Source: a virus
Length of the DNA stretch: 35,243 bases
IMG/VR virus record: IMGVR_UViG_3300008110_000686
Location: 1-35,243 of that record
Strand: one strand, 5' to 3'
Positions within the stretch are counted from its first letter, which is position 1. Each line of letters starts with the position of its first letter. Positions 7,973 through 35,075 of this stretch are shown in pieces. The notes below the pieces were generated by a model. The model searched no databases and had not been told where the DNA came from. It was given only the letters and a program-made list of their open reading frames with translations. The position numbers and the translations under genes were made by a program.

Positions 7973-8085
7973 TATTTATGCGCCGCCTTCTTATGTCTTA
8001 GCAATGTATCGTTGGCGAAGATACCCCAACGAACTTCTATTCCTTTTTTACAAATATCGCAAATCACAACTCTACCCTTTTCCAC
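7972..8085 (-). CDS. 37-residue C2H2-type zinc finger microprotein
   Basis: A very short gene starting with GTG at 8085 and ending with TAA at 7972-7974. The product contains VICDICKKGIEVRW followed by LLRHKKAAH, giving C9-x2-C12 ... H31-x4-H36, the ligand pattern of a C2H2 finger, with a long loop between the pairs. Support for translation is unusually good: the GTG shares its G with the TAG of the upstream gene (TAGTG), the TAA shares its last A with the downstream ATG (TAATG), and aaggcgg lies upstream as a ribosome site. It fills what would otherwise be a gap of 112 bases in a packed operon. Small phage zinc fingers often bind nucleic acid or host proteins; its target is unknown. Confidence 0.7.
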   Translation of the reverse strand: MEKGRVVICDICKKGIEVRWGIFANDTLLRHKKAAHK

Positions 8086-8570
8086 TAGTCCGCCTTCCAC
8101 ACGGGTACAAATCTTCCCTCGTCTGTCTTAGTATACAATATAATGTTGTGTTTGAGAAGAGCCTGTAATTCTGTGCGTGAAGGTAAATTACCAGAATGCC
8201 CAGCATCAACAATATATTGATGCAAGTCCAATATGTCCGATTCTTTAAACATATACTTAGACCAGTTTTCGTGATCGGGATTTCCAATAGGATAAATCTT
8301 TTGTGGAGACTTAATCTTACCCTGAATTATATATTCCTGAATAGTTACTCTATGCTTACCAAGCATTGAGGCAACCTCTACAACTGTAAAGGCATTCTCC
8401 ATATACTTGTTAACCTGAGAATAAGAATACAGCACTCTCTTCCTATCTGGATAACACCAAGCAACTAATTCATCTTTTGATCTAGATGATCTAATAACCT
8501 TATGTATTTTGTCGTTTAGGAAGAAATACCGAAACTTTTTAGGTTTAGGTTCTCTCTTTTTTCTAGCCAT
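8085..8570 (-). CDS. Helix-turn-helix DNA-binding protein
   Basis: A 161-residue basic protein. The first 12 residues are a lysine/arginine patch (MARKKREPKPKK). The middle contains FTVVEVASMLGKHRVTIQEY (about residues 61-80), then IIQGKIKSP, which matches the winged helix-turn-helix of the MerR/excisionase superfamily (helix, turn, recognition helix, then a GKI wing). The C-terminal part has no recognised domain. It is probably a transcription regulator or a DNA-architecture protein. It lies among small zinc proteins near the start of the replication operon, close to the operator-like repeat at 9546-9564, which it could in principle bind. The first 55 bases overlap the zinc ribbon gene upstream. 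Confidence 0.7.
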   Translation of the reverse strand: MARKKREPKPKKFRYFFLNDKIHKVIRSSRSKDELVAWCYPDRKRVLYSYSQVNKYMENAFTVVEVASMLGKHRVTIQEYIIQGKIKSPQKIYPIGNPDHENWSKYMFKESDILDLHQYIVDAGHSGNLPSRTELQALLKHNIILYTKTDEGRFVPVWKAD

Positions 8571-8701
8571 TTTCCAAAACCACTCGTCTCTTTGTTAACC
8601 ATCCAGCGCTTTCCGCACATAATGCAGAACAGTTCCATATGAAGCTTTTGTGAGAATACCCTATCAACAAATACTCTACCACCGCATTTTTTACACCACA
8701 T
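8516..8701 (-). CDS. Small zinc ribbon protein
   Basis: A 61-residue protein with two CxxC knuckles, CKKC (residues 3-6) and CIMC (26-29), separated by a hydrophobic hairpin: the classic zinc ribbon layout. The rest is basic and aromatic (KRWMVNKE, GKWLEKREN). The ATG at 8701 shares its A with the TAA stop of the metallophosphoesterase (TAATG), which is why I prefer it to an in-frame start further upstream at 8734. The 3' end overlaps the next gene by 55 bases. Such ribbons bind nucleic acid or RNA polymerase in many phages; here the role is unknown. Confidence 0.65.
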   Translation of the reverse strand: MWCKKCGGRVFVDRVFSQKLHMELFCIMCGKRWMVNKETSGFGKWLEKRENLNLKSFGISS

Positions 8702-9501
8702 TATAAGGTAAATACCTTTCCGTCTACAACGCAAGAGTAGTCTGGGGATACGTGGATCATCTGGATATGTGGATAATCATTTACAATGTGTGCAATTGCA
8801 AATCCCTTTTGCCAGTCGTGATGCTGGCTGTACTTCATGCCATCGCTTTTTTCGTCACACATATGGCCAATTTCATACCCACGAAGAGTTTCTCCATCTC
8901 CGTTATTTCTTAACTCATATGTTACCATATGCGAAGCAATTCTGTGAGAGTGTCCTCTGATTAAAGATACCTGAAGATCTTCCATATCTTTTCTAACAGC
9001 TCCAGTTGCTGAAACAGAAAGACCATGATGAACATGTATGTCTCCAAAGCGGCGCTTTGGCAATTCGTTATAATAGATATACTCATATCCTAAAGAGTCT
9101 AGGCTCCATAAAGATTCTGGAGTTACCTCGCTAATATATTCTGGAAGCTTTGCATCAACATAGTTAAATACTCTAATGTCATGGTTGCCTAATGCTGAGA
9201 ATAACTGTGCGTCTGGAAGCATCTCTCTAGTCTTTGCATAGAAATCTCTTGCTCCTTTTGCTTCATGCCTCATCATTGGAACAATAAGGTCTCCGCTTTC
9301 AGTCTTATGATAATTTAAAAACTCTGCAGATCTTCCCTCTGTGTACTTGCTATAGCATGCCTGATCATCTGTATCGCCAAGGTAGTCAACTACATCTGGC
9401 TTAAACCATTTCATTACTTTAAACCATAGGGAGATCATCTTATCATCCTGATATGGGAACTGCTGATCGGATGATAACATCCACTTTAAATCGTTGCTCA
9501 T
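8701..9501 (-). CDS. Calcineurin-like metallophosphoesterase
   Basis: A 266-residue two-metal phosphoesterase. The family motifs appear in order: SSDQQFP (Asp of motif I, with Gln where His is usual), YLGDTDD (GDxxD), LGNHDIR (GNHD), VHHG and RGHSHR (GHxH). Relatives include phage nucleases, nucleotide phosphatases and RNA-end processing enzymes; the substrate cannot be assigned. It is the first gene after the structural region and follows the promoter/terminator module at 9518-9584. The ATG at 9501 is preceded by aaggtag. It may act in DNA or nucleotide processing, given its place at the head of the replication cluster. Confidence 0.82.
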   Translation of the reverse strand: MSNDLKWMLSSDQQFPYQDDKMISLWFKVMKWFKPDVVDYLGDTDDQACYSKYTEGRSAEFLNYHKTESGDLIVPMMRHEAKGARDFYAKTREMLPDAQLFSALGNHDIRVFNYVDAKLPEYISEVTPESLWSLDSLGYEYIYYNELPKRRFGDIHVHHGLSVSATGAVRKDMEDLQVSLIRGHSHRIASHMVTYELRNNGDGETLRGYEIGHMCDEKSDGMKYSQHHDWQKGFAIAHIVNDYPHIQMIHVSPDYSCVVDGKVFTL

Positions 9502-9517
9502 GTTCTACCTTAATACG

Positions 9518-9540
9518 AAAAAAGTCACGGTTGCGTGACT
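9518..9540 (-). terminator. Intrinsic terminator or attenuator after the structural genes
   Basis: A perfect 7-bp stem (agtcacg / cgtgact, 9523-9540) with a 4-base loop is followed on the minus strand by six T (9518-9523). It closes the tail gene operon. It also lies only about 10 bases downstream of the predicted start of the promoter at 9557-9584, so it may attenuate that promoter. Confidence 0.85.
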
Positions 9541-9545
9541 TTGAT

Positions 9546-9564
9546 GTTACAACGTAATTGTAAC
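9546..9564. promoter_or_regulatory. Inverted repeat, probable operator
   Basis: The sequence gttacaattacgttgtaac (minus strand) is a 7-bp inverted repeat with a 5-base centre. Its left arm contains the -10 box TACAAT of the promoter. Since the repeat spans the -10 and the likely start site, it suits a DNA operator for a dimeric repressor rather than an RNA hairpin. Confidence 0.5.
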
Positions 9565-9584
9565 ATATTTTATTGGATTGTCAA
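9557..9584 (-). promoter_or_regulatory. Sigma70-type promoter ahead of the replication cluster
   Basis: Minus strand TTGACA (9579-9584), a 16-base spacer, then TACAAT (9557-9562) preceded by TGT, an extended -10. This is the best -35 in the window. Transcription would start near 9550, between the structural gene ending at 9587 and the metallophosphoesterase at 9501, but an intrinsic terminator follows immediately. Confidence 0.65.
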
Positions 9585-9586
9585 TG

Positions 9587-10027
9587 CTAAGAGATGTCCC
9601 TCATGCAGATTGCAATAACATCTACATATATAGCTGAGCGTGTTCCGTCTCCTACAAAATTTACGAATAGGGTTGGGCTTCCTGTATTAACTCCACCTAC
9701 GGTTGCAGTAATAACATCTTTGTCGCTCACAGAAGCTTTTACTCCTGTAGAAATGTACACCTTACTAGCAGATAGCTCTGCCTGTGTAAACTTATCTCCA
9801 AAGCTAAATACTGTATTCTGTGGCTTACCCGCCTTTACGTCCTCAAACTTATGTCTAAATGTAAATATGACTGGAACCTGTAACTTAGTACCATCTGAGT
9901 TTGTTGAGTTTGCTAAAGCGGCAGACTGATACACATTGTTTACATTCTTAACTAAATTGTTAAGCTTTGTAGGATCAAGCGGCTCCCCGTCATTAAATAC
10001 TACTGGGATAAATTCATTTGTTGTCAT
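9587..10027 (-). CDS. Probable minor structural protein
   Basis: A 146-residue protein, largely beta strand by appearance. It begins with a segment common in small phage virion proteins (FIPVVFNDGEPLDPTKLNNLV), then a helix with NVNNVYQSAA. The C-terminal 90 residues are a beta-sandwich-like stretch (VPVIFTFRHKFED, KVYISTGVK, SPTLFVNFVGDG, AIYVDVIAI). It is the last gene of the tail region, before the terminator at 9518-9540. The start is coupled to the upstream gene by TAATG. I do not recognise a named family; a tail-tip, decoration or fibre-associated role is inferred from position. Confidence 0.6.
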   Translation of the reverse strand: MTTNEFIPVVFNDGEPLDPTKLNNLVKNVNNVYQSAALANSTNSDGTKLQVPVIFTFRHKFEDVKAGKPQNTVFSFGDKFTQAELSASKVYISTGVKASVSDKDVITATVGGVNTGSPTLFVNFVGDGTRSAIYVDVIAICMRDIS

Positions 10028-35016: not shown

Positions 35017-35045
35017 ATTATAGCATCCTTAAATTAAAATGAAAA
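35017..35045 (-). promoter_or_regulatory. Promoter downstream of the capsid gene terminator
   Basis: Minus strand TTTTCA (35040-35045), a 17-base spacer, TATAAT (35017-35022), with TGC before the -10 (extended -10). The -35 box lies in the trailing strand of the terminator, so termination and new initiation are packed together. Confidence 0.6.
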
Positions 35046-35075
35046 GCCCCCAAAAATTAATTTGGGGGACTTTTC
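35041..35075 (-). terminator. Strong terminator after major capsid gene
   Basis: A long stem with gaaaag + cccccaaa on one side and tttggggg + cttttc on the other, with one unpaired A and an AT-rich loop. The minus-strand side ends in gggggcttttcatttt. It is nearly symmetrical, so it could act on both strands. It isolates the highly expressed capsid gene. Confidence 0.8.

Follow-up and report, generated by a model that had tools for sequence, protein, structure and literature searches.

A conserved promoter followed at once by a predicted weak terminator at the structural/replication boundary of aquatic phages

In phage lambda, the terminator tR' lies approximately 190 nt downstream of the promoter pR', and the known factor Q binds between the -35 and -10 elements. 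In the phiC31 early region, among the Streptomyces phages, hairpin terminators are located between genes, some of them without a U-run. In Escherichia coli, the greA leader is a proven combination of a promoter, a short leader and an intrinsic terminator, which stops about two thirds of the transcripts and lets about one third read through, and the released GraL RNAs of 37–59 nt act in trans (PMC6829880). In phage T4, the promoters of I-TevI and other genes are nested in a hairpin that only RNA started at promoters further upstream can form and that hides the ribosome binding site (PMC2988022). Our searches of the literature on Stanwilliamsviridae transcription, phiC31 early terminators and promoter-proximal phage terminators returned nothing usable, and transcription control in large freshwater actinobacterial phages is apparently unstudied in the literature searched.

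We analyzed a 35,243-nt stretch of viral DNA (hereafter the window), in which the long gene blocks run on the minus strand, the same strand as the element described here. The last ORF of the upstream structural block (9587–10027, minus strand) is variable among relatives, has no match in PHROG or Pfam, and ends in TAG; the -35 element of the promoter starts 2 nt later. The first gene past the element encodes a metallophosphoesterase (8701–9501, minus strand), assigned by its match to phrog_221, with its ATG at 9501 and a Shine-Dalgarno sequence, AAGG, after the T-run. This gene heads the replication genes: the downstream operon holds a helix-turn-helix protein (HTH_17, phrog_9440; 8085–8570, minus strand), and a DnaB-type helicase, a primase and a DNA polymerase III-type protein are found further downstream, so the label of structural/replication boundary given in the earlier note is correct. 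A probable promoter of the structural (late) operon, TTTTCA-17-TGCTATAAT, is located at 35017–35045 on the minus strand, with a hairpin at 35068–35047 before it, which fits the earlier remark that elsewhere the terminator precedes the promoter. The motif of this probable late promoter, GGCTTTTCATTT-N-TGCTATAAT, also occurs as one copy in each of three relatives. A search of bacterial genome contigs with the phosphoesterase returned no relative and thus indicated no host or prophage. Relatives infect Streptomyces, Rhodococcus, Mycobacterium, and Gordonia, from which we infer an actinobacterial host.

The element consists of three overlapping or adjoining parts, all of which had been recognized from the sequence before. 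The promoter (9557–9584, minus strand) is of the sigma-70/sigma-A type, with near-consensus hexamers that are kept in relatives: the -35 element TTGACA (9584–9579) and the -10 element TACAAT (9562–9557), which is preceded by TGT, are separated by a 16-bp spacer. It matches the consensus at 11 of 12 positions and is among the two best sites in a 20-kb scan. Promoter geometry places the predicted transcription start at 9549–9551 on the minus strand, 6–8 nt past the -10 element. Over the -10 element lies an inverted repeat, ATGTTACAA-TTACG-TTGTAACAT (9544–9566, strand-neutral); its presence was confirmed, but its arms are 9 bp long with a 5-nt spacer rather than the 7 bp at 9546–9564 first described. 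The repeat spans approximately -14 to +3 relative to the predicted start, with the left arm upstream of the start and the right arm straddling it. Just past the predicted start, after a leader of about 8 nt that contains no start codon, a hairpin with six T was found as reported, AAAGTCACG-CAAC-CGTGACTTT (9542–9521), with a 9-bp stem and the loop CAAC. The T6 run occupies 9523–9518, so that three of the six T lie within the stem. On the basis of the scan, conservation, stem pairing and score, we annotated the hairpin and T6 together as an intrinsic terminator (9518–9542, minus strand).

In the first 20 kb, 50 promoter-like sites were found against 60.9 expected by shuffling, and 11 terminator-like sites against 12.3, which is at chance level; the score alone is not significant, and the significance of the element comes from conservation rather than from the scans. 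A search with the phosphoesterase yielded 80 IMG/VR viral contigs of 90–99% identity. The promoter is present in all 80, and the hairpin with its T-run in 79, comprising 78 detected by a regular expression and L021, whose GGTCAC stem was missed by the expression and recognized by eye. The earlier note had raised the case of a terminator conserved without its promoter; in these relatives the two are conserved together. In a second, more diverse and partly overlapping set of 80 loci, from a search centred on a Rhodococcus phage relative, the promoter stands directly before the gene in 56 loci, 43 of which also carry the hairpin and T-run. Over 76 distinct elements, pairwise identity averages 99% in the -35 element, 93% in the -10 element, 88% and 86% in the two stem arms, and 96% in the T-run, compared with 40% over the 10 bases that open the spacer and 43% over the 6 that follow the T-run; these freely drifting stretches serve as internal controls. 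A chance co-occurrence of promoter and hairpin was thereby ruled out. Since the T6 is kept on one side of the hairpin (96%) and the opposite side carries AAA, the hairpin is oriented properly for a terminator. The stem sequence GTCACG is identical in 66 of the 76 elements, a stricter constancy than pairing in a hairpin would by itself require and a hint of either a binding factor or sequence exchange among phages. As a separate observation, closely similar phosphoesterases in L057, L079, L300, L310, L320, and L324 follow very different upstream elements, so that the gene start resembles a recombination boundary.

By the d'Aubenton Carafa score, the terminator appears weak, lying not far above zero at 4.7 (4.0 for the consensus of the element) compared with 11–24 for other terminators of these phages. 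When intergenic regions were scanned with stricter criteria, no other terminator was identified on the window's gene strand. Intergenic terminators are few in the window and three relatives of about 115 kb, and among these four sequences it is the only gene-strand terminator with a strong promoter directly upstream, with the exception of a weaker-matching site at 56911 in G007. A DNA pattern built on the promoter alone was tried for finding such sites in viral contigs and rejected as too unspecific. Other promoter arrangements were noted in passing. On the minus strand of G003 (approximately 57060–57150 of the reversed record) and of G001 near the contig end (113846–113961, and again 66–91), a promoter is followed after 34–61 nt by a strong hairpin and T-run; the hairpin interior, CGGATCCGCCTCTGA, is identical in both and the stems differ, making this a candidate small RNA. 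In several promoters of the right-arm genes of G001, G003, and G007, the -35/spacer region resembles TAGACAATGTCAGTGG and TATAAT comes next, which may mark an operator shared by a regulon. Many promoters in G001 (58940, 90359, 95899), G003 (6106, 87638), and G007 have an ATG at the predicted start, which suggests leaderless transcripts.

We consider the element to be best read as an operon boundary with a weak promoter-proximal terminator, and give this reading about an even chance of being right. A weak terminator combined with a near-consensus, extended -10 promoter makes a fixed leaky stop the simplest mechanism. The host-type promoter right past the last structural ORF would drive the replication genes, and the weak terminator would begin about 8 nt past the start site. 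Transcripts of the late operon would cross the promoter and end at the terminator, and the promoter's own transcripts would meet the same terminator at about +32, where part of the RNA would end at approximately 30–35 nt and the remainder would continue into the replication genes. Overall, a fixed, leaky stop would limit the output of a strong promoter, and the replication genes would be isolated from late transcription. Late polymerases crossing the replication promoter would probably occlude it as well, an effect that would be lost if the terminator came first, which is one reason why this order might have been selected. The GraL-like traits are present, namely a promoter, then a GC stem and T-run within about 50 nt, ahead of the first gene, with the stem kept by compensatory change and the T-run kept. 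The element is conserved, and probably an ordinary gene-dosage control rather than a new system.

The earlier note had proposed an attenuator or an antitermination-controlled switch for the replication genes. Promoter-proximal attenuation agrees with the geometry and with the joint retention of promoter and terminator, but not in its classical form, because the leader of about 8 nt without a start codon leaves no room for a leader peptide and no fold competes with the terminator. In the predicted leader fold the terminator persists, and no alternative antiterminator fold was seen. Factor-controlled antitermination, in which a phage or host factor at the promoter or leader would make the polymerase ignore the terminator and so time the replication genes, as lambda Q does, could account for a promoter-then-terminator order kept across long distances, for the unusually constant stem sequence, and for a conserved repeat where a polymerase-loading factor could bind. 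We nevertheless judge it unlikely: comparison of the ten neighbouring proteins with PHROGs brought no Q-like gene to notice, the leader shows no alternative fold and is too short to encode a peptide or provide an RNA loading site, and a weak terminator needs no antiterminator.

We counted base pairs in 42 aligned elements and in 500 shuffles. For both helices together, 92.5% of the cells are paired and 20 cells are changed on both sides, values that none of the 500 shuffles reached in either respect; slid versions of the two-helix structure are only 29–52% paired. The terminator stem (helix 2) is 98.4% paired in the 42 sequences and has three pairs in which both partners have changed (U-A to C-G, A-U to G-C, and G-C to A-U) as well as G-U intermediates. 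The -10 repeat (helix 1) is 86.5% paired, also with three compensated pairs, at columns 22/38, 25/35, and 27/33 of alignment A2. Its GCTACA/TGTAGC variant cannot be placed on the phosphoesterase tree with fewer than four changes, which makes the compensatory changes repeated events. RNA started upstream is predicted to fold as two adjacent hairpins (-20.5 kcal/mol, z -3.3), and the -10 repeat would form the second hairpin, flush with the terminator, only in such RNA. The Shine-Dalgarno AAGG lies outside both hairpins, and sequestration of the ribosome site by the -10 repeat was rejected for this phage family. The element has no match in Rfam.

These folds bear on a second alternative, in which the terminator, with the -10 repeat hairpin stacked on it, would mainly stop upstream RNA, and a newly started polymerase would escape. 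The covariation of the repeat, the location of its left arm upstream of the predicted start, its variable spacer, the predicted two-hairpin fold of upstream-initiated RNA, and the T4 promoters nested in hairpins, where RNA from different promoters folds differently (PMC2988022), are all consistent with such a one-way stop. The one-sided changes in the repeat, however, show no significant bias of G-U over A-C (11 versus 9 cells), the repeat is missing in many relatives, and greA shows that an intrinsic terminator this near a start can work, which together render this alternative quite unlikely. A broader scheme places the promoter between two stacked hairpins formed jointly only in late read-through RNA, with the terminator stopping late transcription and passing fresh polymerase, or a phage factor overriding it, as a late-to-replication switch in a large group of actinophages; we regard it as somewhat improbable.

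The -10 repeat had also been proposed as an operator. It could be a DNA site at which a dimeric repressor, with the operon's helix-turn-helix protein as one candidate, would shut the promoter off; the position at approximately -14 to +3 is typical of operators, and the two arms change together. Several observations weaken this proposal to the point that we find it highly doubtful. The distance from GTTACA to TGTAAC is 5, 6 or 7, and several loci (L261, L266, L268, L301, L310, L313, L317, and L337) lack the repeat but keep the promoter and terminator. The helix-turn-helix protein's recognition stretch does not follow the repeat: it is identical in L261, which lacks the repeat, and L055, which has it (both MLNKHRVTIQDYI), and nearly identical in L301 (without) and L304 (with). 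The variable spacing, the loss of the repeat and the shared recognition stretch make a rigid dimer operator for that protein unlikely, and long palindromes are not known as common targets of HTH_17 proteins. The search for further copies that the earlier note had suggested revealed no more than a single copy in the genome of any of 12 relatives; the match in G004 may be another site, its boundary repeat being the longer GTTACAC/GTGTAAC form. An RNA hairpin in upstream transcripts would fit the variable spacing of the repeat.

The remaining suggestion, that the terminated RNA of about 30–35 nt is itself the product that matters and acts in trans, we find hardly credible. The geometry would release such an RNA, and GraL provides a precedent for action in trans in E. 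coli (PMC6829880), but it is the stem and T-run that are kept, with the loop and leader drifting, and Rfam gave no match; the claim of a tiny functional RNA is weakened accordingly.

Comparison with more distant phages revealed how far the arrangement extends. In Streptomyces phages (Stanwilliamsviridae), with a phosphoesterase approximately 42–44% identical, TTGACA or TTGACT, about 17 bases, and TACAGT, TACAAT, TACACT or TAGACT stand ahead of the phosphoesterase gene, followed about 10–15 bases past the -10 element by a 10–12 bp hairpin of quite different sequence and then by a Shine-Dalgarno sequence. The same order was found in Comrade, Sham, TunaTartare, Phredrick, Annadreamy, and Blueeyedbeauty. 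Because these hairpins have no proper T-run and a terminator score below zero, they may have another role; by eye, some of their 3' arms could pair with the Shine-Dalgarno sequence. In Circinus, Wakanda, and Faust, a membrane-protein gene is inserted, a promoter stays before the inserted gene, and the hairpin is absent. In the Rhodococcus phages Grayson, Weasels2, Trina, and NiceHouse the genes abut, with neither promoter nor hairpin at this place. Three aquatic contigs in which an HNH gene lies upstream (L079, L320, and L325) have the promoter without the hairpin, which indicates that the stop is dispensable. In the clade of L273, L274, L276, and L278, the -10 repeat and the hairpin are both replaced by other sequences (CCCCAGTT...AACTGGGG and TGCCA...TGGCA). 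Judged from these sequences, the promoter-then-hairpin order is a property of a larger phage group and not of one sequence. Elsewhere in the Streptomyces phages, an inverted repeat flanks the -10 element of the promoter past the phosphoesterase gene in Comrade (L103, approximately 1640–1675) and Navo (L112, approximately 1570–1613), and the right arm of the Navo repeat holds the Shine-Dalgarno sequence; both are candidates for T4-like nested hairpins.

The locus offers a precise, conserved and testable site, a promoter whose first approximately 35 nt include a terminator. It is conserved in a large, widespread family of aquatic phages and shared by very divergent phages, among them Streptomyces phages that can be cultured and allow direct mapping. 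Regulated read-through would make it a new late/replication switch; otherwise it would be a clean natural case of an operon-boundary attenuator with a fixed leak.

Among the systems described above, lambda pR'-tR' shares the succession of promoter, terminator and operon, as well as a conserved element at the promoter region, but here the terminator lies within about 15 bases of the promoter, and no Q-like factor was noticed among the ten neighbouring proteins. The Streptomyces relatives' hairpins without a U-run recall the phiC31 terminators. If the -10 repeat folds in RNA, the promoter would lie, as in T4, within a hairpin confined to upstream RNA; unlike in T4, the Shine-Dalgarno sequence is located outside both hairpins. 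The greA leader likewise has an intrinsic terminator no more than about 20 nt past the promoter in the 5' UTR. Its sequence is unrelated, and the element described here would, in addition, end the upstream operon. At greA, short terminated RNAs are released and read-through yields the mRNA; the geometry at the phage boundary is the same, with the leak predicted from the terminator score.
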